64,000 bases of DNA, from positions 17,501 to 81,500 of the forward strand of contig JAODTK010002821.1 in the NCBI GenBank assembly GCA_026419785.1, in the 5' to 3' direction. This document shows positions 4,241 through 64,000 of the stretch, piece after piece; the stretch's first letter is position 1; every line of letters begins with the position of its first letter. The notes beneath the pieces were generated by a model. It did not search any database. It had not been told where the DNA came from and saw only the letters and a program-made list of their open reading frames with translations. A program made the translations under genes and the position numbers. The DNA comes from Sclerodactyla briareus (lineage: Eukaryota > Echinodermata > Holothuroidea > Dendrochirotida > Sclerodactylidae).

Positions 4241-6611
4241 CAGGGCGTAGCCAGCAATTTAAAACTGGGGGGGGGGGCATAGCACATATCGAGGGGCCAG
4301 AGCAACCGGCGCCAGACCCAAAGTGCAACTAGTAATTTAGTATATACAAATGAATGGAGAACTATTTGACCATTACGCTTGATTTTCACAGGGTTGGTAA
4401 GGACAGGGGCCAATAGCAACCTCGGTTAATTTGAGCTATTGTAATATTTTGGAAACAAGTGGACATTGTACTGTTTCCCGTAGGGGGATGGAAGGCCCTC
4501 GACCTCATGAGCCTGAACCCTAGCTAATTTTGACTTTGAAATGCAGTTTTATCTTCCCAGTAAACCCAAACACCTGAGGTGAAAAGCCCTTTGATCGATC
4601 AATGTTTGTGCCTTTTCGTTGCAAATACCTTTTTGATCATATCACACTTTATCTGTTGCCCGCAACAGATTCCGGAATCCCTTCTGGACTATGAGTAGCG
4701 TGGTTTATATTGCTACGGGACATAATTACCACTAAATTTGAATGCATAATAATTGTACATAACATAGAGGAAACATAATACTCAGTTAATGGCACATGAC
4801 AGCAAGGGGCGTATATTCATAAAATTCCAGTGGAGTGTGAATCATTTGAGACCGACAAGATTCTTATTATCGGTATTGTACAGGGGCGGCGCCATACGGT
4901 CGTGGAGGTTTTGCTCTGGGTCCCCGACCGGGTGGCCAAACGTTTTCGTTAGTAATCTTGTTCTGTTATATGATCTGGGGGAGGGGCACCCCCTCCCCTT
5001 TGGGAATTTTTGCAAACTGAACCTTCATGCAGACGCAAAATGGTGCTGTCCTAGTACGATATGCTAGCATGAATTATTTAATAAAAATATTCTTTTTTTG
5101 CAACATTCACATCATGGTCTGCTTAGCCCAGAGCTGATGAAACCGATATTTAATAATTGTCCTAGGGGTGATCGTGGAACACATGTCCATCATAGTAAAT
5201 CAATTTGCTGTACTCCTCGGACGTGCGCCGCGCACCTCTTTTTTTTCTTGCTTCTCCTCCCCGACGTTTCTCGCTTTGCTCCCGACAAGGGGGGGGGGAC
5301 TGCTCCGTGGGCGCCGCCCCCGCATTGTACGTCGATATTTCGAATGTAGTTTTACAGGGGGTACGAAATATTTGATTCAATGTGAGGTGGAAACGAGTTT
5401 GTATTTTTTTATTGACTCGTGGATTTACTACCAGATTGCAGAATGCCACACGCAAACATACACTACAATTAGAATTTTTTTTTTGACCAATCTAACACTT
5501 AAAACAGCGTTGGACATGCAAATTAGGGGAACACCAACCCAATGCACTTACGTATTATCACATACATAATGTGGGAAAAAAGTGCCTATTTACGCCGACA
5601 TCCCTATCGGTGACCCCCGATCAGACACTGATAAGGCGACCAAACGTAGGCAAGTCCGCCCACCGATCAACAATTGAATCCAATCAATGCCCATCTGTGG
5701 TGAGATCACGCTCACAAGCCAGTGTCAATACGTCCCGTAGTCGGTCTTGGCCATGACAGAAGTAAGAACGTCTTCACTAGTTTAAAGCTAGAGAAAACTT
5801 TTCACTCGATGCGAAAGTATTGGTACAGTCATCATGGCAGAGGCACCTCTTAGGTACAGGTCACGGCTATAATCAATAATTTTTTCAACCTAACTCGAGG
5901 TCGGAGAGCCGAGAACCGACTTCTTTGTCGCCAGAGACCGACTCTGATTTCCACCCCCCCCCCGTATTTACGACCCTGCATGACGCGTCGATGACTGAAA
6001 GAATACAGTGACAAATGACAATTATAACATTTTGAAGTCTGTATTGAGAGATCACAAGAATATCAACACAACATACCAGTCGCCGTCATAAAAAAAAATG
6101 AACTCAATAATTTTGTGATGGTCGGGTTGTAGTATAGGCGAGAGAAAATAATTAGTATTGCAATGTTGCAGTCCTATATTCAAAATTATATTACCAGTCA
6201 GCTGGCATGGTCTAAACTCGTTCTCAAGGCCAATGGCCAACACGTTTAATACTGTAGTTGTTCACCCAAAGAAATATGGGTACTCGGTGGACACTAATTG
6301 GGTACAACGACTTGGGTACGGTACGTATCATTGGCTCTGCGTTCCAATTCCATGTACCTTGTTGTTTATGAAAACTACATCAAATCGTGGTCGTGATCAC
6401 CTTGTCTTCACGAAAAAGTGACCTTCTTTTGACTTCATAATTCAGGGCGTGAGTACAGTGTAGCTGATGCCCCTTACTGTTTGCCACGCACTAGGATCCA
6501 CCCTATATCAGCGTCAGTATATTTGACTTTTGAACACAAAACCTTGAATTTGGGGGGGCAGGAGGGAGTGTGGGGGCCAAGGCCCCCCCCCCCCCCGTGG
6601 CTACGCCACTG
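4241..6611. mobile_element. hAT-like non-autonomous transposon with 8-bp target duplication
   Basis: The left end starts CAGGGCGTAGCCAG, followed by a G run. The right end is a C run followed by GTGGCTACGCCACTG, the inverted counterpart. The flanking 8-mers are GTCACGTA (4233-4240) and GTCAAGTA (6612-6619), 7 of 8 identical. Short terminal inverted repeats of CAG-TGGCGTAGCCA type with 8-bp duplications are typical of the hAT superfamily. No transposase was recognised in its 2.37 kb, so it would depend on a source element. A smaller hAT-like candidate sits inside it (4881-5321). The TIR and duplication are seen directly; the superfamily is inferred. Confidence 0.75.
4881..5321. mobile_element. 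Small hAT-like MITE candidate nested in the 4241-6611 element
   Basis: The left end is CAGGGGCGGCGCCA. The right end near 5321 reads TGGGCGCCGCCCC, the inverted counterpart with mismatches. The left flank is GTATTGTA (4873-4880) and the right flank is GCATTGTA, 7 of 8 identical if the boundary is set at 5320/5321. The boundary is uncertain by one or two bases. G-rich runs next to both ends match the other hAT-like ends in this window. Confidence 0.5.
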
Positions 6612-20345: not shown

Positions 20346-20461
20346 AATATGGATCAATGTACTCATTACGCGAACCAAGTAATTCGCTGCGTCATCCATC
20401 CAAGTGAGGTCAACAGGCGCGAATCCATGGGAGGGGGCTTTTTTCGTCATTTTTTTTTTTT

Positions 20462-20600
20462 AATTAGTTGGGTGAATATCGGGCGACTTGATCATACCTC
20501 ATACTTTCACCTGTTTAGATTTTTCATTTCGTGATTTATTTGCAATACGACAGCCGGGTAACCTGTGCTGATGTCAACTCAAGACGTCTGTTCTTTAATG
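20462..20600 (+). repeat. Direct repeat R1 (pair with 21988-22125)
   Basis: Shares long identical stretches with 21988-22125, including TTTCACCTGTTTAGATTTTT, TTATTTGCAATACGACAGCC and GGGTAACCTGTGCTGATG. The two copies flank the Helentron-like element at 21139-21959. A poly-T run precedes this copy. Confidence 0.85.
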
Positions 20601-21138
20601 CACACTTCAGAATCAGAACAGTCAACTCATCAATACTAAATTTCAGTATGCATAATTATTGTACATTCCTGAATATTTGTCCCGACCTCTGACAATGCGT
20701 AGTGAGCACAGTGGCACAGGTGCATTAGGTCATTTTGGGACATTTCATGCAAATAGGCCTATGCCAAATGTTTCTTCTCCTGAAGTTGAAATCCGAAATG
20801 AGATGATCTTGAACTTCGTTATTATTAATCTAGAATAATTATTATCATATTAAACTGCCCTCGATGTTATAGCTTACGACTTCCAGGAGGTTATGGGCAT
20901 TTTGGTTGCCGACTATAATTCATATGAGTAGAATAGCGAGCAGAAAGTGAAAGGTCCAGGCTTTCCTAAATAGCTACCTATGGGAGGTTTCTTAGACCCT
21001 GATTGTCCGATGTGTTTCCCCTGCCTGACCTACCTACAAATTCGGACATTCCCTTACATGTTTATCATGGTAGGTGTTCGAAGATCGAAAATCAGCCTCA
21101 TTTGAGTTAGAAATCAGATTCCAATCAAAATTCCCGCA
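20601..21138. other. Unassigned sequence between repeat R1 and the Helentron-like element
   Basis: I recognise no gene or repeat here. It is AT-rich with no coding pattern. Confidence 0.3.
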
Positions 21139-21222
21139 ATTTTTAGCTCAAACCAGCTGGTTGAGCTATTGGAATCTGCATGGCCACTCTATCGCATTAT
21201 CGATATATTATCTCTCTATCAT

Positions 21223-21255
<33 letters not shown>

Positions 21256-21959
21256 ATCTATCTATCTATCTTCTATCTATCTATCTATACTCTATCTATC
21301 CAGTGTGTCAACAATTGCCTTTTTGGCTCTCAAACAGTCATTCTGCGATGAATGTTGACCAAACTCGGACACAATGTTCTTTGACGCCATGGGACATGTT
21401 TGACATTGTGAAAGTCAAGGTCAAATACCATTAAAGTTCCCACTTGGGCCCGTCAGCCCATTTTATGAAATTTCCCACAATGGTACTCAAATGCATCTCC
21501 TCCCCCAAGATTACATTGATGTTCTTCAACGTTACCTTGTATGGTCCCTTGGGTTAGAGGGCCATCAGGGGAGTTTGGGATCCTGAGTCAAGTTTGGGCC
21601 CTAGAGCCCAATATATGAAATACTGCAAAATCCTGTATCTCCAACAAATTCTGTCGCAAATTGCTGATGTTCTGTCATAGTGACAGTCTAAAAGCCGTAC
21701 CTTCAAGGTTAGGCCCGGGATTTACATAGACCGCCAGGCCCATTCTCACTATGGGCCCTGCGGCCCATTATGTAGAATGTCTATAGCCTGCTTAGACATC
21801 TTTGGGCCATATTATCATGGTCCCAAGTTATTACAGGGCACAATAGGCCATTGTTTGAAACTACCTTCTTGGACTCATGATCTTGAACATTATCACATAA
21901 TTGTACATCTGTCCTGGTTCATTCATGCGGTGTGAGCTACCGCACCATTGTTGCCCTTG
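21139..21959 (+). mobile_element. Short Helentron/Helitron-like non-autonomous element with (CTAT)n tract
   Basis: The 5' side opens TTTTTAGCTCAAACCAGCTG, then a (CTAT)n microsatellite (21212-21300), then AAAGTCAAGGTCAAA and diverged TGGGCCC-rich units. The 3' side reads TGTGAGCTACCGCACCATTG, TTGCC, CTTG, then T. The same parts in the same order, inverted, make up the copies at 37581-42316 and 57087-60235. The 3' end in those copies has a hairpin (AGCACC...GGTGCT) just before CTTG, CTAG or CTGG and a flanking T. AGCTCAAA near one end and TTTGAGCT near the other form short subterminal inverted repeats, as in Helentron-derived non-autonomous elements. It encodes no protein that I can see. The exact 5' boundary is uncertain. 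Confidence 0.65.
21212..21300 (+). repeat. (CTAT)n microsatellite
   Basis: Imperfect run of the tetranucleotide CTAT/TATC. It is an internal part of the element at 21139-21959; the two larger copies carry the complementary GATA repeats at the matching place. Confidence 0.95.
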
Positions 21960-21987
21960 TTTTACGTGCCCCCCCCCCCCCTTTGTG

Positions 21988-22125
21988 AATTAGTTTGGTG
22001 AATATCGTATCGGTCGACTTGATCACACCTTATACTTTCACCTGTTTAGATTTTTCATTTCGTGATTTATTTGCAATACGACAGCCGGGTAACCTGTGCT
22101 GATGGCAACTCCATAGACGCTGTTC
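21988..22125 (+). repeat. Direct repeat R2 (pair with 20462-20600)
   Basis: Second copy of R1, 28 bases beyond the 3' end of the Helentron-like element. A poly-C run precedes it, where R1 has poly-T. Confidence 0.85.
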
Positions 22126-24929: not shown

Positions 24930-25520
24930 GCTGTAGTCAGGGAATATATGCAGTCATGACAGTGTGTGTGTGTGTCTCTCTCTCTCTCTCTGTGTGTGGT
25001 GTGTGCGTGTGTGTGCGCGCGTGTGTGTGTGCGTGTGTGTGTGTGTTTGTATGTGACGCCTGGCTTGTGAAGAGCTAATTCTCGACCCCACCTGGATGGA
25101 TGAAGCTCATACTTGGTATGTGCGTTCCCCATATTGAGTACATGATCCTGATTGTTTGGGGGTGGGGTGAGGTCATCTGAGGTCATTAGAGGTCAAAGTC
25201 TGAAGTCGTGAAGAGGATAAGTCCAAAATGCTTGGTTCAATGAAAGCTGAAATTTGGTGAGTAGCTTTCTTCTGGGTCTAGGGGAGTATAAGAACCCTAT
25301 TACTTTTTGTGCAGACCAGATGTCATTATGGGGAAACATGGGGAAATTGTGAAAAATTGATAAATTTAGCTTGTGAAGAGCATAACTCGACCCCAATGGA
25401 TGGATGAAGCTCTTGCTTGTCATGTGGGTTCCCCATGATGAATACATGATCCCTATTGTTTGGGGGTCGAGTCAAAAGTCATATTAGGTCAGCATAAAGT
25501 CACAGCTCTGCGAGCCTGTG
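24930..25520 (-). mobile_element. Element of the ~305-bp tandem family with (GT)n tract
   Basis: About 1.5 diverged units of the 305-bp repeat (25080-25500) in inverted orientation relative to 51165-52450, next to a (GT)n/(CT)n microsatellite. Beyond the microsatellite, the minus strand reads GACTGCATATATTCCCTGAC, matching GACTGCATAGATTCCTCTGA beyond the (CA)n tract at 52565. So unit, microsatellite and short end sequence occur together at both loci, which suggests one mobile element design. The far ends are not delimited. Confidence 0.6.
24958..25055 (+). repeat. (GT)n/(CT)n microsatellite
   Basis: Runs of GT, CT and GT in turn. It belongs to the element at 24930-25520. The Cys/Val and Thr/His-rich open frames over it are artefacts. 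Confidence 0.95.
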
Positions 25521-36008: not shown

Positions 36009-36600
36009 CTAGAGCACAATGGGTGCTGTAGCTCAAAACCACAACTGTACCAAGACGAATGTACAATTGTGTTAAATGTTCAAAAACATGAGATCAAGAA
36101 GGCAGTTCAAGCAATGATAACTACCCCTTAAACGACCTTTGACCTGATCGTCATATGGCCAAAGAAGTTTTGCAGTCACTAACAAACATTGTTCAACTCA
36201 GTTTGTTCAATCATGCATAAAAGATATGACCGATTGAGAGAGAAAAGGGCAATTTTACACAGGGGCCCATTGTGTCCCTTCAATGACCTTGACTTCACAT
36301 GGTCAAGGAGGTCCCAAAGGTGATGGAACATGGGGTAAAGTTTGGTCAAACATCCATCAAAAGAATGACTAATTTTGCTCTTTCCATCCATAGTGTAATC
36401 CCAAGTGCGGATGAACACATGTGGAATTTGCCCAAGAAGAATTGGGTTGGGACACTAATTCATGTTGCCCCCCCCACCAATGCTTCCAATTCGCAACTGC
36501 CATTTTCTTAACACTTTGCACACAAACCAAATAGCTTAGGTTTAGTCTACTTTATACTTATTGTTTATGACCAGACTGGCTTTGCCAAGACCTAATGTGC
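36009..36600 (-). mobile_element. Helentron-like element, 3' part
   Basis: Read on the minus strand it ends GAGCTACAGCACCCATTGTG, CTCTAG, then T: hairpin, CTAG, flanking T, as in the other copies. Going right it shares with the larger copies a GATCAAGAAGGCAGTTCAAG stretch, a ATGGCCAAAG block, a GATTGAGAGAGAAAA block and a GACCTTGACTTCACATGGTC block. It lacks the GATA tract and the long inner array, so it is a truncated or shorter subtype; the right limit is approximate. Confidence 0.6.
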
Positions 36601-37330: not shown

Positions 37331-39359
37331 CTTACCTCATATGCCCACCAATAATTTATTCACAGATAAAAACAAGATTGTGTACAAACTGGTGAAATCA
37401 ATTGTGCTTCTCACCGGTCGGTTTCGCTTGTGTTTTGACTGAATGTGACATTTGTCCGCCAGTAACCGCAGCGACCAGGTGCCGTAGGCTGAGGGGAGGG
37501 GTGTGGCGAGGGTGTGTACCCGTGGGCGAACGCGAACGAACCCCGCACCAGTGGAGTTTCACGCAAAATTAAAAATGAAACAAGAGCACCCAATGGTGCT
37601 GTAGCGCAAAACAGACAATAGAACCAGACAAATTCAAAATTATTGTAAATGTTTGAGACAATGAAGTAAGAAGGCCAGTTTCAAACATTGCCTATTGTGC
37701 CCCTGTAGCACTTTGACACTTGGTCTTATATGGCCAAAGCTGTCTTAGCATTCAATAACATTGCTACTCAGTTCGGTCAACATGCATCGAAGAATACCAA
37801 TGAGAGAGACGAGGGTGGTGATCTGCCCAAAGTGTTTCGCCGGCTTGTGCAATCTGTGGTTTCTACCATTAGATGAAGCCAATTACTAGCAAACTATAAA
37901 TGTTGAGTTGAAGATGTAGTTTTTAACAACTCTGCGAGAGGAATTCCACCCATTGAAATGCCAACGTAAAATTTGTTAACTGGTCACCTAATTGGAATTG
38001 TTCTGCTGAAATCTCGTCAGTTCATGAACCGCATCCTGATTATATGTCAAAAGTCAAACCGCATCATTATAGCATTGTATGTTCTGGACGTAATCTGGAT
38101 AAAGAGCATAAACATACACATCTATGATGGAATAGGCAATACTATTAATTATGGTGTGATTGGTTACCTTACTTCAGATTGATCACCTATTCACCTACAC
38201 CTACTCTAATTATGATTAGATCACCTCACCTACTTTGCCATTAATGTTATCATAGCTATAGCTGAAACCATACAAACAACAGGTCCATATTTCATTGTGG
38301 ATGCGTGTTTTCCCGGTTCGGTATTGCGCATGTTGCAGAGGACATGTAAGTCTGTGTCTGGGAATGGTTCACAATAGTATGGGCAGTCGGCTGTAAAACG
38401 TCCACATGGAGCATGAATGTTGCTGCCCAAGTTATGAGAAAGTGGTCGATCCTGGGATTCACTGATTGTTGGGGGATGGAAACCAAACTTGTGGTGCTCT
38501 GTGAAACAGGTTACACCCTGCCTTGATATCATTTTGACCACTTCTGAGAAGAGTGGTGAGTTATCAAAGATGAAAATAACCAGGATCCGAGGAGGCTTGA
38601 GTGGCTTCCTGTATGTCATGAGAAGCGGTTGTAATCAGCAAGTTAGATCAGAAGAAGCCTACAGGGCAGAGAGAAATGGACTTGGTGGAAATTGGTTACA
38701 ACAATGTGGACTTTAATAACCAGTAGTTTTTTTGGTGATGGTACCGAGATCATACTGATAATATCGATGACAGATCAGCTAGTTACATGAGAATTATCTG
38801 CAGGTTTAGCTTTAAATTTGAATTGTGGTCTCTGGGTTGTTGAGTGTGATCAAGCTATTATTCCCTCTCATAACCATAGACAGTGCGCGTTGGGAGCCAA
38901 AGTCAAGAGGTTGGATAATACAGTAGTGGGGGCTGCACTTGGCAATGGGTTGAAGCCAATCATGGAGAGGTGCCCGGAGATCGGAAGCCCCAAGGCCCAT
39001 GGCCATGGCTTGTGGGCAATGCGCCTCTGAGCCCCACGCAAGTTGACTTCTTTCAAGGCCAGCTTGAGTGGAGGAAACACTAGTTAGTGTTGCAATTATT
39101 AGAGATATGGCATTTTTCTACAAAGCATGGGTTGTGGCTACTGTGCAAGCATGGTATTATAAGAAGGTACGTCTGCACAGTGGCCTATCCCAACCTCAGA
39201 TGGGGAGATTGTCAGGGTAATTTTTTTCATATTGTAATGATGACAACATTTTCCGAAGGGAGGGTAACTTGTCTCATATCATACAAGCATTAACACACAA
39301 TATTCTGGGTAGGGAAGGGGTAGCAAGATTTTCCGGGGAAGGGTAAGCTCATATCCATA

Positions 39360-40640
39360 TTGAGCATAATTCTATATGAATCCTAAATGTACAACGTGCG
39401 TACATTGATAGGGATAGCAGTGGGGCTTGTGTTGGCAGTGCTGACTTGCATTGCACCGGTATATTTTTCAAAACCACATCTCATTCTATTTCTTAATCTA
39501 TTTACTGTATGCATTCGCACTGATTCCATTTCTGATTCTCAATCCTACTAGTTTTTTCAAGGATGGGTGGATAGGCAAAGGATTTCAATAATCCATCTCA
39601 TGATGTTCATACTCACTGCCTTTTTCCCTAGGTTTTTTTTTTTTGTATTATACCAGAAGCCTAAGAGGCTACTCTAAAATTGACTTTTTCTCCTAAATTA
39701 AAATTGGGAAGGCTACCGCACTTGCTGGTTCCATGCTCCCAACAAAGCAGTTAGCACCTCTGCAACAAACTTTTGCCTTTCTGTCTTTAGGGGGGAGGGG
39801 TGGAAGGTGATCACAATTTTTTTTTTTTTTGTCTTCTTATATGTGCATTTATTCGATAGTTGTAACCTTATATGAGCATAATTCATCTAAATCATCTATG
39901 AAGTGTCACAATTTGACATTTTAGTTGGGGGGTCATCTCATTGATGTGATTTGCCTATTCTCAATTCAGCTCCCTTCCGATACACTTTGTACATGATGTA
40001 GTAAAAGAACTAACAATTTCTCAGGATGACCACATATAGGCTGCAGGATGCAAGGGAGTGTAACTCGGTCACTACAAGAGCCTCCTTCCCCGTGGACTAC
40101 AGGCAATCCCCAAGGGCTATTTGTTTATCGCAATTGGGGGTGCCTTGTTTTATTAATTCTGACAGGGGTCTCAAAACATTGTAGTTCAGTGTCAAAACGT
40201 ATTACATTGAAATTGAGTGAATGGAGTTGCATAAAACTGTAATTTGGAACATCATAGTAGTGGGTGGGGAAAATTGTGAGGGGGGGGGGGGGTGCAGGTA
40301 TGCGGAAGAACCCAGTTATGGGGAAATATGAGAGGAAGCACGGAAGATGTGTAATTTATAGGGGGTACTAGTGGATTCAGGTTTGTCAACATTTGTCATT
40401 GGGGAAATCATGATGAAGGGGGTGGGGGTGCCCACTGGGGCGGGGGTGTTGGGGAAGGCGGGGGGTAGGCTGAATGGGCCAGCAGCGCCCCAGTATGAGG
40501 GAGGGAATAGAGAGATCAGGAAAAACATTCGGGAATTAGACGCACATTCACAGTAGGATGTGCTCCCATGACGAACATTCGCCACTGACCATGCGTCACA
40601 ATATGGAATATAGCATTTTGATGCATTTAACAGATGGGCC
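39360..40640. other. Segment present only in this Helentron-like copy
   Basis: The copy at 57087-60235 has no counterpart. The segment holds poly-T runs (39635, 39820), a G run (40280) and G-rich sequence near 40415-40465. I recognise no gene and no hAT ends in it. Confidence 0.5.
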
Positions 40641-40839
40641 TAGAACAAACAGTGGACTAAGCCAGAAGATCCCGGCCACCCTGATGGACCACTACAAGGA
40701 GCATTAAATAAGACCACCCCCCCCCCCCCAATTTGGAAACTTGAGATGCATGTCGAGTCTAAGTGTTTATTCCATGAATTTTTATAAAAATGGCCGCTGG
40801 CCCAAGGGGACCTTGGATTCAAAAGGTCCGAACACCCCA

Positions 40840-42160
40840 GGTTCGACGTTAGACCATCATCGTACCAAATGTCAGTACTGTGCACCAAAACTTGGGAGAG
40901 GAGAAGCATTTGTCTATTCCACATGACGGGCTATTTCAGGCCAACACTGGGGACATGGGTCCCCAATCCCTGGGCACCATGAAGGTAGGCTATCAGACCA
41001 TCCTGCATGACCGAAAACATCGGCACTGTGCAAATGGATTTGTAGGAAATACTATTATTTCGCAGTATTTATATGATGAGCCATAGGCCCAAACTGGGCC
41101 TGAGGACCGAAATTTCTGGACGAGCAAAGGGCCTTTTACGAAGGAACCTACATGTGACGTTGAAGAACCCAATGAAGTTTGGAAAGGAGATGCATTGCGA
41201 ACACCATTGTGTGAAATATCATCAAATGGGCCCTAGGGCCCAAGTCAACCTTGGACAGAAAAAATCATAACACCAAAGGTATGTCTACAGCCATTCTTAT
41301 GGCCGACATCAGCACTGGGCAAAAATGCATTTCGTAGGAGATACAAGATTGCAGGATTTCATCTATTGGGCCCTAGGGACCAAACTGGGCCCTGGCCCCC
41401 AAATTCACGAAAAACCCGATGGCCCTCTAGCCAAAGACCATTACAAGTAACGTTTAAGAAAATCAATTGAACTTGTGGGAGGAGGTAGAGATGCATTTGA
41501 AGTACCATTGTGTGAAATTCTGAATGGGACGCGGGCCCAAGTGGGCCCTTGGACCAACAATTCCTGAACACCCCAAAGGTACAGCTGTCAGACCAGTCAG
41601 TATGAATGCATGTCAGCAATGTGCAATAAAAATTTGTAAGAGAAGCATTTTGCGAAATTCCACATAATGGGCTCCAGGGCCCACAATGGGCCTTGGGAAC
41701 TAATGCCCTGGGCACCCTAAAGATATGGCAATTAAGACCACCATCACGACTGAACATCAGCACGGGCAACAAAATGTAGGAGATACAAGATTTTATGGTA
41801 ATTATATAATGGGCCCTAGGGGCCCCAAAGGAGTCCTGGAGCCCAAAAATTACCGAACACACACGATGGCCCTCTACCCAAGGACCATACATGTAACCTA
41901 GAAGAATGAATCGTGTGGGAGGAGTTGCATTTCTTGTACAGCGTGTGAAATTCTAATGGGCCCGGGGCCCGCGTGAGGGCCTGCGACCAAAACTTCCGAA
42001 CACCCCGAAGGTACGGCTGTTAGGACATCATAATGCACGAACATCAGCAATGTGCACACAAATTTGTAGGAGATACATTGGAATTTTACACATAATGGCC
42101 TATACTGACCCTCAATGGCTTTGACCTTGACCGTCACAAGGTCAATATGCCCATGGGTAA
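40840..42160 (-). repeat. Internal tandem array, ~147-bp and ~295-bp periods
   Basis: The landmark 'gaccatc...catcagca-tgtgca' falls near 40845, 40995, 41290, 41585, 41732 and 42018, giving steps of about 147-150 or 286-297 bases. Each unit holds TGGGCCC/AGGGCCCAA palindromic blocks and a TTTGTAGGAGATAC block. Units are diverged and indel-rich. The same array is in 58890-60000. Confidence 0.75.
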
Positions 42161-42318
42161 TGAACATGTGTTCAAGTTGGTCGACATCATCCAGAGAATG
42201 TTTGGGAGCCGAAAAGGCAATGGTTAAACACTGGATAGATAGATAGATAGAAGATAGATGAGTGCATGCAGATTCCACAGAGGCTCAACCAGCATAGCTG
42301 AGTTTGAGCTGAAAAATG

Positions 42319-45769: not shown

Positions 45770-48060
45770 AGGTAAATGAATAGTTCAATGTTGAACTTGC
45801 TGCGTTGGAGAAACTACCTAACGGAGTCGATAACATGGTTAAGCCAAGGAAAATAGTTCTATGCTACCTATTCAAGTCGGAATTGCGCTAATCACCAATG
45901 AAGGCAATCACATGGTACAGGTGGTGAATCGATCTCATGGTTAACCTGTTCAGATAGGGTTAAAAACTACCTAATTAGGCCAATCTCTGCTGGGTGTGAG
46001 ACAATAAATAGTTTCACTATTAACCTGTTAGATAAAACAGAACTAATTAAATAAGCCAATTCAATGTGGGTACAAGACAATAAATAGTTTCACACATTAC
46101 TGTTAGATAGGATAGAACTACCTAACTAAGCCAATTCACATTGCTGGGTGGGTGAGGCGATAATAGTTCACATATTATCGTTAGATAGGATAGAAACTAA
46201 CTAAACTAAGCCAAATCACTGTTGGGACGGAGACAATATAAGTTCACATATTAACCTGTTCATATAGGAGAGAAACTACCTAAATGAGCCAATCAAATGC
46301 TGGGACCAAGAACAATATTAAAGTTCACATATTAACCTGTTCATATAGGAAGAACTACCTAACTGAGCCAATTCAAATGTGGGTACAAGACAATAAATAG
46401 TTAAATTCACATATTACCTGTTAGAATAAGAGAAAAAACAACTACTAACTAAGCCAATCACAGCGGTCGGTAAAGACAAATATATAGTTCACATGTTAAC
46501 CTCTTCAGATAGAATGAAATCCTAAATAAGCCAATTCACATGCCTGGGTTAACACGCCAATAAATAGTTCAACAATTACCTGCTCAAATTAAGAGAAAAA
46601 AACTACTTAACTAAGCCAAACACATGCTGGGTTACAAGGACAATAAATAGTTAACATATTAACCATGTTCAGATAGGATAGGACTACCTAACTAAGCCAA
46701 TCACAGCTGGGTGATGAGGACGATAATAGTTCACATTATGATCCTGTTTAGATAGGATAGAACTACCAACTAAGGCCAATTCACATGTTGGGCACGAGAC
46801 AATATATAGTTCACATATTAACATGTTCATATAGGATAGAACTACCTACACGAGCCATCAAATGCTGGGTACAAGACCAATATATAGTTCACATATTAAC
46901 GGTTCATATAGGATAGAACTACCTAACTGAGCCAATCAAATGCTGGGGACAGAGGACAATAAATAGTTCACCTATTACCCTGTTGAATAAGAGAAAACAA
47001 CTACATAACTAAGCCAATCACATGTGGGTACACGACAATATAGTTCACCATGTTAACCTCTTCAGATAGAATAGAACTACCTAAATAAGCCAATCACATG
47101 CTGGGTACAAGCCAATAAATAGTTCACATATTACCCTGCTCAAATAAGAGAAAAACTCCTTAACTAAGCCATCAACATGCTGGGTACAAAGGACAATAAA
47201 ATAGTCAAATATACCGTTTGCAGATAGGATATGACTAACCTAAATAAGCCAATCAATGGCTGGGACAAGACAATAAATAGTTACTATTACCCTGCTCAAA
47301 TAGAGAAACCTACTAACTAAGCCAATCACATTGCTGGGTACAAGACAAATAAAATAGGTCACATATTACCTGTTCAAATAAGAGAAAAACTACATAACTA
47401 AGCCAATCACATGCTGGGTACAAGAAATGAAATAGTTCAAATATGACCTGTTGGTAGAGGGAAATACCTGAGCCAATCGAAGGCTGGGGACAAGGACAAT
47501 ATAGTTCACATATACCCGTTTAGATAGGATAGAACTTCCTAACTACGCTAATCACGAGACAATAAATAATACACACAGATCAACTGTATAAAGATAGAAA
47601 CTATATAACTAACACAAATCACATAATGGGTGGTACTAGACACAATAATCAGCATGGGTGGAAAAAATTGGAAGGTGGGAGCTCTTCCCAGGAAATCTTT
47701 GCCCATTCTGGAGGGAAATCTTGCAACCTGGAGGGAAAACTCTTTCAACTTTAGGGGTAATCATGTAATTTTTCAGGGCAACAAATTCTCTCCGGGAAAT
47801 TTACATTTTTTCCCATCACTGATAATCCAGTTTCACATATAAACAGGTTTTATCTGGATAGACTACCAAACTGAGCCAATTCACACGTGGGGTACAAGAC
47901 AATAAATAGTTCACATATTAAATGTAGATAGGATAAAAACGTACCAAACTAAGCCAATCACATGCGGGGTACAAGAAAATAAAATAGTCACATATCACTC
48001 TGCTTCAGTCTAGGATAAAATACTTGAAGGCCAATGGTCATGTAAATATGACTGGATTCT
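45770..48060 (+). repeat. Satellite array, ~78-bp monomer
   Basis: The monomer consensus by eye is CTACCTAACTAAGCCAATCA, CATGCTGGGTACAAGACAAT, AAATAGTTCACATATTAACC, then TGTTCAGATAGGATAGAA, about 78 bases. Roughly 29 monomers fit the span, with frequent small indels. A non-satellite segment interrupts it at about 47640-47830. Further monomer pieces lie at 48565-48597 and 48925-49010, so the array once extended to about 49,010. Confidence 0.9.
47640..47830. other. Non-satellite insertion inside the satellite array
   Basis: This segment does not match the monomer. It has short internal repetition (GGAGGGAAATCTT / GGAGGGAAAACTCTT) and no terminal repeats that I can see. Confidence 0.6.
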
Positions 48061-49034: not shown

Positions 49035-49640
49035 CCTACAGAGTGGTATTCCTGGTCCAGTATGTCGGGTTTAATTCCTCGGCAGATAAACAAAGGCCTC
49101 TGTAGGGTAATATCATGAGTGGTTGGTGCGGAGTGCTAGGGTCTTCATCTCCCCCTATCAGTCAGAGGTTTAGCTACATCCAAGAGTGGTATCCTATGGT
49201 TAGGGTCGTTAATCCTCGGCTGAATAACAAAGGCCCTTGGTCGGTATATCATAGGGTTTGGTTAGCGGAGTGCTAGTACTTCATCTCCCCCCTTATCCTC
49301 GGAGTTTAGCTACACCACACAGAGTGGTATCATGATGGGTCAGGTGTCGGAATTCCTCGGCGAATAACAAAGGCCTCTGTCCGGGGATTCATAGGGTTTG
49401 GTAGCGGGTGTAGGTATTATCTCCCCCCTTATTCCTCCGATAGCTACATCCCAAAGTGGTATCCTGGTTAGTGTGTCGGGAATTCCTCGGCGAATAACAA
49501 AGGCCTCTGTTCGTACATATCAATAGTGTTTGTTAGCGGAGGAGTGCTAGGTACTTCATCTCCCCCCTTATCCTCAGAGTTAAGCACATCCACAAGTGGT
49601 ATTCCTGGTCGATGTGTCGGGTAATTCCTCTGCTGCAAGC
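49035..49640 (+). repeat. Tandem repeat, ~4.3 units of ~140 bp
   Basis: Units start with AGAGTGGTATCCTGGT near 49041, 49182, 49322, 49453 and 49596. Each has AATTCCTCGGCGAATAACAA, AGGCCTCTGT, TAGCGGAGTGCTAG and CTTCATCTCCCCCCTTATCC. The array directly follows the last satellite piece. Confidence 0.9.
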
Positions 49641-50894: not shown

Positions 50895-51164
50895 TGGTGA
50901 CAGTTAAAAAACCAGAAAGCCAAAAGCTTAGTGATTCCTTGACTTTTTCTGACAAACTATAGCTAGCCACGAGACAAATGGGAGATGGCACCAGATCATA
51001 TGCCCGCGCAACATAACAACTGCGAATTTCCTGTTTATCCCAACCACCAATAGGGTTCCTATACTCTGAGAGTTGTGTAGCTACACACTGAATTTCGAGA
51101 TTTTCAGGGAACTTTGACTTAGATGACTCGACCTTCAACCAAAACAATAGGGTTCATGTATCAT
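50895..51164. other. No gene recognised
   Basis: A minus-strand frame spans it without motifs. The ~305-bp array starts at its right edge. Confidence 0.3.
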
Positions 51165-52590
51165 GTGGGGAACACCCACATACCGAGTATGAGCCTTATC
51201 CATCCAGGCAGGGTCGAGTTATATCAGGTTTACAAGCCAAAATTGCCAAAATATTGACTTTTTCACAAATTTTCTAGTTTGACCAAAATTCCCCCCGACC
51301 TATACAAAGAACAACAGTGTTCTGCCTGATCCCATAAGAAAGCTACACAACAATTTCAACCTGGATCAGACCAACCATTCCTTGATCATCATTTTACAAG
51401 GTTTTCACCGCTGTGACCTCAGATGACTTATGAAACCTGACCCCAAAACAATAGGTTTCATGGACTCAATAATGGGGAACACACATACCAAGTATGAGCT
51501 TCTCCATCAGGCGGGGTCGAGTTAGGGTGTTCACAAGCAAAATTGGCCAAAAATCGACTTTTCAAATGTTCTTTTTTAGGTCAATAGTCACCACGACCTA
51601 TACCCAAAAAATTGGGGTTCCTGTGCTCCCCCTAAGAAAGAGTCACACCAAATTTCAACCTGATCAGACCAACCATTCTGGACTTATCGTTGTTTACAAG
51701 GTTTTCAGACTTTGACCTCTGTGACCTCAGATGACCTTGACCTGACCCCAAACCAATAGGGTTATGTTAATCATCATGGGGAACACACATACCAAGTATG
51801 AGCTTCATCCATCCAGGCGGGGTCGAGTTATCGTGTGTACAAGCCAATATTGGCCAAAAATATCGACTTTTAATTTTCTTTTTTCGCGTCAATATTCACC
51901 CCGACCATACCACAAACAATGGGGTTCCTGTGCTCCATAAGAAAGCTTCACACCAAAATTCAACTGATCCAGACCAACAATTCTGACTTATCGTGTTGAC
52001 AAGGTTGTCAGAACTTGACCTTGGTTGACTCAGATGACCTCTGACTTGACTCACCAAACCAATAGGGTTTCTGTACTCTCATGGGGAAACACACTACCAA
52101 GTATGAGCTTCATCCATCCAGGCGGTGTCGGGTTATTCAGGTTTACAAGACAAAAATGGCCCCAAAAATATCAACTTTCACCAAATTTTTCACAGTTTCC
52201 CACAAAATTCACCCCCACCTATACCAAACCAATAGGGTTCCTGTGCCTCCCCATAAGAAAGCTAACACCAAAATTCTCAACCTGATCAGACCAACCATTA
52301 TGGGCTTATCTGTTACAAGAGGTTTTCAGAATTGACCTCTGGTGACCTTTCAAAACCTCTGACCTGGACCCCAAAACAATAGGGTTATGGGTACTCATCT
52401 GGGACACACATACCAAGTATGAGCCGGACCACTCAGACCTGATATCAAGGGATCGGTTTACCAAGCTGGCGTCACACACAACACAACACGCACACAACAC
52501 AACACACACACGCACACACACACACATACACACGCACAAGAACACACACACCACACACACACAAAAATTGTGACTGCATAGATTCCTCTG
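51165..52590 (+). mobile_element. Tandem array of ~305-bp units with terminal (CA)n tract
   Basis: The landmark GGGGAACACACATACCAAGT falls near 51165, 51473, 51774, 52080 and 52398 (steps of about 301-318). Each unit carries GAGCTTCATCCATCCAGGCG, GGGTCGAGTTATCGTG, CCAATAGGGTTCCTGTGCTC, CAACCTGATCAGACCAACCA, TTATCGTGTTTACAAGG and TTGACCTCTGTGACCTCAGA. A (CA)n tract at 52466-52565 ends it, followed by GTGACTGCATAGATTCCTCT, which is shared with the inverted element at 24930-25520. Single units occur at 20085-20345 and 7755-7905. The design (tandem core, microsatellite, fixed end) parallels the Helentron-like copies here, but hairpin and CTRR ends were not found. Confidence 0.75.
52466..52565 (+). 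repeat. (CA)n microsatellite
   Basis: Imperfect CA/CACAA run closing the ~305-bp array. Confidence 0.95.
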
Positions 52591-57086: not shown

Positions 57087-60000
57087 CCAGAGCACCAATG
57101 GGTGCTGTAGCTCAAAACTGCACAAATGAACCAAGACAATTCAAAATTATGGTTCATATGTTTGAGAGCATGAAGTCAAGAAGGCAGACTCAAACAATTG
57201 CCTATTGTGCCCGGAACAACCGCTTTGACCTTGGATCTTCATAAGGCCCCAGCTGTCTTAGAAGTCAATAAACATTGATACTTAGTTTCGGTCAACATCA
57301 TCGAAGAATAACCAATTGAGAGAGAAAAACAAGGCGTGGTGATATGTCCCAAGTGTCTGGCCCGCTTGTGCAATCAGGGTTTTCTACCATTAGAATGAAG
57401 CAATTGCTAGCTAACTATACATGTCGAGTTGAAGATGAAGTTTTTAACAACTCTGAGAGAGAATTCCCACCCATTGGAAAATGCCAATCGAAAATTGTTA
57501 AAAACGGTCACAATAATTAGCATATTTTATGCTGCAATCTAGTTAAGTTTCAGAACCTGCCATCTTGACTTATATGCCAAAGTACAAACCACATATATAG
57601 ATCGGATGGTCATGGCGTAATCTGCTAGAGATAAACAATAAAATCTAGGGAATAGGCAAATTACTCCTTAATTATGGGTTTGGGATTGGGGCCCCTAAAT
57701 TCTGATTAGATCCACTTACACCTAACTGTTTGTTGCCTTAATGTGATCAATCGCTATAGCTCTGGAATTGAAACCATTACGAAACATGACCATTATTTCA
57801 TTGTGGCTGCTTCCTGGTTTCTGTAAGTTGCGCCATGTGCAGGGTGAACATTTAAGTATCTGTCTGGGAAGGGTTTCACAATAACTCTTGGCAGTCGGCT
57901 GTAAACAGTCAATGGAGCATTGAATCTTTGATTTCAGGTTCTGAGAAAGTGGTCGGATCTGGGATTCACTGTGTCTGTTGCGAGGGAAACGTAACATGGT
58001 GGTCCTGGGCCCGGTTACACCCTGCCCTTGATATCATTGGACCACTTCATGGAAGAGTAGGTGAGTATCCAAGATCAAAAATAACCAGGATGCCTAGATG
58101 AGGCTTGAATGGCTCCATGAAATGTTGTTGTGGAAAAGCTGTAATCAGCAAGTAAGATCAGAAGAAGGCCTACTGGGCAGGAAATTGAATAAGGGGTGAA
58201 ATGTGTTACACACTGAGGCTCTTAACCAGTAGTTCTCTTTTGGGTATATGGTACTGAGATCATACTGATAATACGAGGATCCAGCAGTTACAATGAGACG
58301 ATCTGAGCGGTTAGCTTCAAATTTAGCATTGTAGTTTCTGTGTTATGTTAAAGCTATTATTCCCTCATCATAAAACATTAGATATGGTGTTGTGTACAAC
58401 AGCCAGGGGTTGGATATTACAGTGGTGGAGGCTGCACATTGGCAATGGGTTGCAGCCAGTAATGCAAGAGGTGACGGAGGCCTGGAAGCCCTGAAGGCCA
58501 TGGCAATCGGCTTTTGGGCAATGGCCTCTGAGACCCAAAAGTACTTCTTTTCAAGGCCAGTTCTGAGTGGGAGAAACACTAGTTATATGTTGGCAATTGT
58601 ACTTATATATATGGCATTTTCTACAAAGCATGGTCTGTTGGCTACTGTTCACAGATTGTATTATAATGAAGGCTACTGCCCACTTGCCTATCCCGCCTCA
58701 GATGGGGAAAAGAGGATTGTTGTCAGGTATTTTTTCTATTGTACTTGATCCCACATTATCAAAGGGGGGAACTTGTCTCATATTCATACAGTCATAAACC
58801 CAATACTTCTGCATGGGTAGGGGAGTTGGTGGCAAATTTTTCGGGGGAAGGGTCACCTCATCCCGCGAAATTGCAATCCCAAATCCCTAGTCACCATGAA
58901 GAGATGACGACCGCAACATGGCCCTGTGCAACTAGATTGGTAGGAAATACTATATTTCACCACAGTTTTTTCATATTATGGGCCCTAAGGGCCCAACTGG
59001 GCCTTGGGCCCTAAATTCCTGGAATGAGCCAAACCCTCTCTGAAGGACCATTACACCTGAACGTTTAAGCGACCCAAATTGAAGCTTGTGGTGGAGAGAT
59101 CATTTCGAACACCATTGTGTTAAAAATTAAAAATCATACAATTGGCCCTAGGTCCCGAGTCAGACCTTGGAACCTTCAACAGCCTCAACCCCCCAAAAGG
59201 ATTTATCATACCATCATTATGACTGACATCATCACTGTGCAACTGAATTTCGTAGGAGATACAAGATTTTGCATTATTCATGTAATTGGGCCCTGGGCCC
59301 AAACTGGGCCTGGCCCAAAGCTTCCCGATGCTGTCAACCCAAGTACCATTACATGTAACTTTAAAGAAATCAATTGAAGCTTGTTGAAGAAGATGCATTT
59401 CAGTAACCATGGTTGAAACGTCATGAAATTGGCCCACGGGCCCGAGTGGAACCTTGGACCCAAAATTCTGAGCACCCCAAAGGTACGCTGTCAGACCATC
59501 ATTTTACTGAATGTCAGCATCGTGCACTAAAATTTGTAAAAGGAGAAGGCATTTTGGCGAAATTCCATGATGTACCCCAGTGCCCACACTGGCATTGGGA
59601 CCTATTCCCTGTGCACTCTAAAGATATGGCTATTAGCCCACCATTACGACTGCCATCCACTGTGCAACAAGTTTGTAGGAGTACAAAGATTTTATGGTAT
59701 TTCATATAATGGCCCTTGGGCCCAAAGTGGGTCCTGACCCAAACTTCCCACCCCCCCCCCCCAGTAGCCCTCTATCCAAGGACCATCACGGTAACCTAGA
59801 ATAACATCAAATGAATCGTGTGGGAGGATATGCCTTTCAAGTACTATTGTGTGAAATTTCATCAAAATGGGCCCTTGGCCCGAGTGGGGCCTTGGACCAA
59901 AAAATCCTGAACACCCCGAAGGTACGCTGTTAGACCATCAGAATGACTGAACATCAGCACTGTGCACCAAATTGTAGAGAGATACTTTTGAAATTTTACA

Positions 60001-60235
60001 CATAATGGGCCAATATTGCCCCTTTTATGGGCTTTGACCTTGACCGTCACAAGGTCAAACATGTCCCACGGGTCATGAACATTGTGTCCCAGTTTTTGTC
60101 GACATCCATCACAGAATGACTGTTTGGGACCAAAAGGCAATTGTAACACACTGGATAAATAGATAGTAGATAATAGATAGGAGTGACTGCAGATTGCCAA
60201 TAGCTCAACCATCACAGCTGGTTTGAGCTAAAAAT
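57087..60235 (-). mobile_element. Helentron/Helitron-like non-autonomous element, most complete copy
   Basis: The 3' end, read on the minus strand, is GAGCTACAGCACCCATTGGT, GCTCTGG, then T: a 6-bp hairpin (AGCACC/GGTGCT), CTGG (matching CTRR) and a flanking T. The other side ends with GACCTTGACCGTCACAAGGT, a GATA-rich tract (60153-60180) and CACAGCTGGTTTGAGCTAAA. AGCTCAAA (57109-57116) and TTTGAGCT (60222-60229) form short subterminal inverted repeats. Inside lie an ~1.8-kb non-tandem region (57087-58870) and a tandem array (58890-60000). Hairpin with CTRR end and A/T insertion are known Helitron features; subterminal repeats, tandem core and microsatellite are known for Helentron-linked elements such as DINE-1 and bivalve pearl elements. 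No Rep or helicase was seen. Confidence 0.7.
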
Positions 60236-63973: not shown

Positions 63974-64000
63974 CTAGAGCACCAATGGTGCGTAGCCAAA
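63974..64000 (-). mobile_element. 3' terminus of another Helentron-like copy, cut by the window edge
   Basis: On the minus strand the sequence ends GGCTACGCACCATTGGTGCT, CTAG, then T, the same hairpin, CTRR end and flanking base as the copies at 36009 and 57087. The body lies beyond the window. Confidence 0.65.

Follow-up and report, generated by a model that had tools for sequence, protein, structure and literature searches.

Very probable non-autonomous Helentrons carrying a partly ordered tandem array in Sclerodactyla briareus, and a Rep relic near the same array

Introduction

In the accepted model of Helentrons, the Rep protein nicks one DNA strand and moves it into a T-rich site, a hairpin near the 3' end of the element serving as the end signal. 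In the part of PMC4067079 cited here, the non-autonomous Helentrons (HINEs) of Metaseiulus and Culex and the DINE-1 elements of Drosophila are described with subterminal inverted repeats (subTIRs), a 3' palindrome and a T-rich target, all shared with the family reported below; as in this family, they leave the target unmodified and encode no proteins, and some copies contain microsatellites or tandem repeats. The same part places the subTIRs of the mite HINE 2-4 nt from the 5' end, and gives an S between the G and P of Rep motif 2 as a mark of Helentrons. In the Pacific oyster, the main text of PMC7492417 describes Cg_HINE elements and cites the Pearl elements as recategorised alongside them.

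In this study we focus on a dispersed repeat family of the holothurian Sclerodactyla briareus, found in a 64,000-nt stretch of contig JAODTK010002821.1 (C2130:17501-81500, hereafter the window) and followed through the 319-Mb assembly of 3171 contigs. A sequence-only reading of the window had assigned the family to the Helentron-associated elements. The features of that design are indeed all present, namely subTIRs, a 5' inverted repeat, a microsatellite, central tandem repeats, a 3' palindrome and a T-rich target; moreover, the copies have no recognisable coding capacity, and no target was duplicated at the sites read. The ends are conserved and paired, empty sites without duplication exist, and a Rep relic lies near the family array. 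This dispersed, non-coding, rolling-circle family thus very probably consists of HINEs.

Results

Layout of the family and copies in the window

From 5' to 3', the family starts with a T-run, followed by the subTIR TAGCTCAAACC, the inverted repeat GGTTGAGCTA, an ATCT/GATA microsatellite and an array of ~147-bp monomers bearing GGGCCC. The 3' half comprises an optional 1.6-kb module, the subTIR GGTTTGAGCTA, the hairpin AGCACCATTGGTGCT, CT[A/T]G and then T. The two subTIRs form a perfect 11-bp pair contained in both end patterns used below, and the palindrome near the 3' end is present in the family. The 5' inverted repeat and microsatellite follow the subTIR, the ATCT tract being very short in some copies, among them L055, L056 and L060.

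Three copies in the window (A, B and C) have both ends and a GATA/ATCT tract adjoining the array, as the sequence-only reading had proposed. Copy A is a complete element on the minus strand (57087..60233), with its 5' end at 60233 and its 3' end at 57087. Its 5' subTIR lies at 60220..60230, the inverted repeat, which is the complement of the subTIR and one base shorter, at 60201..60210, and the ATCT/GATA tetranucleotide microsatellite at 60153..60181. The central array, with monomer order babcaba, extends over 58995..60011 (approximate limits) and the non-array module over 57300..58860. The 3' end is made of the subTIR GTTTTGAGCTA at 57108..57118 (consensus GGTTTGAGCTA), the hairpin AGCACC-CATT-GGTGCT at 57091..57106 and the terminus CTGG at 57087..57090, after which the host T follows. 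Copy C (37581..42316, minus strand) is also complete; it has the array babcacabc, the 3' module found in A and a further ~1.4 kb. The two copies align over most of their length, with 76% identity in the array half and 75% in the module half. Copy D (36009..36246, minus strand) consists of a 3' end only, with ~240 bp alignable to A, and copy E (63974..64000, minus strand) is a 3' end truncated at the edge of the window.

The short copy B (21141..21959, plus strand) lacks the module and, of the 3' region seen in A, retains no more than the final ~126 bp. Its left flank recurs at seven other places where the matches stop at the T-run, and at least two of these, on C296 and C1919, adjoin exact 5' ends; B therefore probably lies within a larger composite repeat and may not be an independent insertion. 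Around this copy (20456-22080), its leftmost ~300 bp are found again in L064, where they adjoin the same end of the element, and a portion of its right flank is repeated ~1.5 kb upstream.

Single-base indels are unusually numerous between A and C: over ~1.7 kb, 121-181 gaps stand against 173-255 mismatches, depending on gap costs. The tandem arrays at 45941-47555, 49073-49630 and 51139-52424 show 11-15% indels. Either indel-rich decay or assembly error would produce such a pattern.

Conserved ends and their pairing

The five 3' ends announced by the sequence-only reading are all present in the window. They read GAGCTACCGCACCATTGTTGCCCTTG at 21959 (plus strand, hairpin eroded) and, on the minus strand, GAGCTACAGCACCCATTGTGCTCTAG at 36009, GCGCTACAGCACCATTGGGTGCTCTTG at 37581, GAGCTACAGCACCCATTGGTGCTCTGG at 57087 and GGCTACGCACCATTGGTGCTCTAG at 63974, each followed by T. 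Four of the five were recovered by a fuzzy scan, and the end at 37581 was recognised by eye. The window contains two exact AGCACC-N(0-30)-GGTGCT hairpins, where 0.10 would be expected. Genome-wide, the exact 3' pattern AGCACCATTGGTGCTCTNGT was found 433 times (210 + 223) and its reversed version never, a longer pattern including the subTIR 94 times against 0 when reversed, and the hairpin alone 1220 times against 241 in the control, per strand. Since each of the five window ends carries one to four changes relative to the exact 3' pattern, the exact counts of ends are lower bounds.

Among 30 aligned 3' ends, the third terminal letter is A in 14, T in 13, C in 2 and G in 1. The CTRR terminus proposed earlier thus holds for the 15 ends with CTAG or CTGG and fails for the 13 with CTTG; CT[A/T]G fits. 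Similarity among the 30 ends stops at CT[A/T]G, and T-rich DNA lies beyond. T also occupies the second position after CTNG in 27 of 30 ends, a position left free by the search pattern, while the first T was built into the 433-match pattern and is not independent evidence there.

At the opposite end, the pattern TTTTAGCTCAAACCAGCN{0,8}TGGTTGAGCT has 184 exact matches (87 + 97), against 0 for its reversed version. Among the 46 exact 5' ends listed, on contigs up to C1801, eight are followed, 1.2-5.4 kb downstream and on their own strand, by an exact 3' end; any other arrangement of the two ends within 10 kb occurs once. A fuzzy scan upstream of exact 3' ends found a 5' end within 6 kb at only 7 of 20 fetched loci, two of them odd: L045 has no a, b or c monomer by typing, and in L048 the 5' end is only 88 bp away. 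The latter (5912-6020) is a miniature copy, with 88 bp from the 5' end to the 3' hairpin and neither array nor body.

A canonical non-autonomous Helitron family, with 5' TC, a 3' hairpin ~11 bp from CTRR and insertion between A and T, would account for the 3' hairpin and for the half of the ends that conform to CTRR. However, the 5' end is TTTTAGCTC and not TC, and the family has subTIRs and a 5' inverted repeat, which together make this explanation very unlikely. In addition, the base before the T-run is T in 10, A in 4 and G in 2 of 16 cases, the 3' flank is T-rich, and the linked Rep described below has GSP, the Helentron form.

Insertion sites

Joined-flank junctions of eight copies were queried (A, B, C, L036, L037, L041, L045 and L049; L047 and L048 were left out). 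As expected from the sequence-only reading, related sites uninterrupted at the predicted termini exist, here for three of the eight junctions: one place for L037, four for L049 and ten for L041, with one more for L041 in L036. For A, L036 and L045 no empty site occurs among the best 40 of 355 candidates scored. None was found for B or C either, the C junction giving a weak and doubtful bridge of about 8 bases only.

Five empty sites were fetched and aligned, and six alignments were read overall. The L049 flanks GTT and TTTGG meet in GTTTTTGG at C2420, the L049 empty sites at C2809 and C1260 having fewer T; the L041 flanks GAT-T and TTTCACC meet in GATATTTTCACC; and the L037 empty site contains about six additional bases where the flanks join. 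The target at the bridged junctions (3/8) is T-rich and not duplicated.

These alignments also bear on the possibility that the family is a MITE or some other cut-and-paste transposon that has inverted termini and tandem repeats inside. Its inverted repeats recall such elements, and the bivalve Pearl elements were first called MITEs, according to the main text of PMC7492417. Nevertheless, the repeats are subterminal, the hairpin and CTNG lie outside the 3' one, and no target duplication occurs in the six empty-site alignments (L041, L049 and L037 sites), so that a cut-and-paste origin is extremely improbable.

A partly ordered array of three monomer types

Monomers were typed as a, b or c with three references cut from L036, and ten other stretches were tested, L036 being excluded as the reference source. 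The cyclic order a-b-c is followed in 46 of 62 steps, steps across array gaps being counted and three of the ten stretches coming from the single C2413 locus; shuffling gave a mean of 22.4 and, in 20,000 shuffles, a maximum of 37. Stretches one to six monomers apart were also compared within seven copies. L036 scores 0.65 at distance three and 0.15 at one, and the top score falls at distance three in A, L037 and L049 as well. In C the maximum is at five (0.31), ahead of three (0.27) and two (0.24); L041, with a score of 0.51 at distance two, is off-order (cacacababb, 5/9 steps); L047 has hardly any excess at any monomer distance. Copy B contains two monomers only.

Other arrays occur in the window. 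One of them, also dispersed and built of ~305-bp units, was observed at 51139-52590 and 24930-25480, and also in L067 (2845-3165) and L071. At three places a GT microsatellite and a comparable lead (AGTCAGAGGAATCTATGCAGTCA, with variants) lie beside it, an arrangement of left module, microsatellite and array that suggests a further element. A ~79-bp array of about 20 copies, A-rich on the plus strand, occupies 45941-47555, and no likeness to the HINE family was noticed there.

The 3' module

The module measures 1.6-1.8 kb in A and C. Scoring the best 40 of 254 candidates for the module of A gave 82 matches, which locate it, at 77-84% identity, in at least 39 further genomic places. Its first ~178 bp are often repeated just before it (e.g. 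C155:116853-117032 and C2460:213170-213884), and these repeats are a second array type within the family. At three places, on C155, C121 and C1137, the 3' hairpin lies ~200 bp past the module. Gene capture was rejected as the origin of the module on the strength of its own repetition in the genome, the ~178-bp repeats often preceding it and the hairpin beyond it; the 1.6-kb segment is taken as a module of the family.

Coding capacity and a Rep relic

The stop-to-stop frames of copies A and C reach 197 aa at most. A Pfam scan of 10 of the 19 window frames of at least 120 aa (stop-to-stop), including 4 of the 6 such frames inside A and C, gave no match.

Three PF14214 matches were found in the assembly, at two loci. 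The better one, C2413:102597-103668, has E-values of 3.2e-9 and 2.8e-11, and its frames contain IEFQQRGSPHAH; the relic has the Helentron-type Rep motif 2, GSPHAH, with S between G and P. One Rep piece (P0002) weakly matches the Helraiser transposase (E 0.043). The family array ends at about L068:764-788, and a 263-aa Rep frame carrying the first PF14214 match starts at 997, ~230 bp further on, in the same orientation; a frame spanning the array end (L068 690-1022) matches DUF6570 below threshold (E 0.022). The 263-aa frame is unbroken, which argues against gross assembly error at this locus. On the same strand, a family 5' end lies at C2413:95119, with microsatellite and the array cabcabcab (8/8 steps), and the Rep frame is 7.5 kb downstream.

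An autonomous partner with the same ends, as suggested by the sequence-only reading, was therefore found in part. A Rep relic lies near the family array with a family 5' end on its strand, but fuzzy scans of the C2413 stretches read on either side of 97400-99600 detected no family 3' end, and C2413 does not appear in the list of exact longer 3' patterns. No helicase is recognisable after Rep and no PIF1 match occurs at C2413; the only PIF1 match found in the assembly, on C3088, has two stops. Downstream of Rep, a GDFNC stretch and, in another frame, ILDLVFSN...SDHN resemble, in our view, an endonuclease; the former has a weak endonuclease match (E 0.21) and the latter none. From ~104.8 kb a different, 305-bp array begins.

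We favour the view that the C2413 locus is a decayed helper of the family, and consider this fairly probable. Three observations speak for it: a family array stops ~230 bp short of the 263-aa frame and shares its orientation, the 5' array has the family order, and just one other Rep relic was found in the assembly. There is nevertheless a substantial chance that a family element inserted beside an unrelated Helentron gene, or captured it. In line with this alternative, ~3.1 kb of sequence following the last remnants that look coding yielded no 3' end. Two or more interruptions break up the array between Rep and the 5' end, where 2.2 kb fall outside the stretches read, and the two array stretches closest to Rep are poorly ordered (3/6 and 2/3 steps).

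No second good copy of the Rep pieces was found in the assembly. L069, on C2926, was rejected as a second helper: it is 48% identical, has one stop, and its 3.1 kb show no similarity to the copies. A common origin of the 3' module and the C2413 Rep element was likewise dismissed, L068 past ~788 having no similarity to the nine copies compared.

Discussion

Judged from sequence, the layout of the S. briareus family is the published HINE layout, a new member of a kind already known. A Helentron Rep/helicase supplied in trans would recognise the 5' end, with its T-run, subTIR and inverted repeat, and the 3' end, with its subTIR, hairpin and CT[A/T]G; it would copy one strand by rolling-circle transfer, the 3' hairpin presumably acting as stop signal, and the copied strand would join a T-rich site without duplicating the target. 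This action on the family ends is what we infer. The C2413 relic would descend from the family's helper, and unequal exchange or slippage among monomers would change the array length. Similarity among family copies is roughly 67-84%, and the helper search, which covered the best candidates only in a possibly incomplete assembly, brought up no intact helper; the family is thus probably old and inactive.

As a tentative and rather doubtful extension, the three-part ordered array might be an original part of the Helentron lineage, situated upstream of Rep in the helper itself, and not picked-up cargo. In that case the transposon would have been spreading a higher-order satellite across the genome, and the array would serve it as a regulatory or replication module of its own. 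Dispersed copies that keep the monomer order, together with a Rep relic near the same array, offer a testable connection between rolling-circle transposition and the way in which satellite DNA arises and spreads.

A literature search with the end sequences as text, figures and supplements aside, returned only one unrelated immunoglobulin paper. Compared with the mite HINE, as described in the part of PMC4067079 cited here, the 3' subTIR ends 20 nt from the terminus instead of ~38-60 nt and the hairpin lies 4 nt from it instead of 8-35 nt; the terminus CT[A/T]G differs from those given there for the Metaseiulus and Culex HINEs and DINE-1. The proto-Helentron of Phytophthora infestans, in the same source, resembles the family in its 3' CTAG and Helentron-type Rep, but has A/T insertion and Helitron structure.

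The main text of PMC7492417 describes the closest likeness in Cg_HINE: a left module of subTIR, inverted repeat and microsatellite (usually with 4-nt units), a centre of satellite-like repeats (140-180 bp for the most part in the oyster), and a right module of subTIR and palindrome. By the wording of that main text, the tendency to a three-part a/b/c monomer order sets our family apart; "higher-order" and "higher order" are absent from the main texts, figures aside, of the oyster papers PMC7492417, PMC8268682 and PMC11136912, and such an order may have been published elsewhere. The oyster study, in the same main text, could not relate ten Helentron-type autonomous Repbase elements to its Cg_HINEs, whereas here a Rep relic lies near the family array. 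Thus array-carrying HINEs were already known from bivalves (PMC7492417, main text), and our work adds a Rep relic close to the array.
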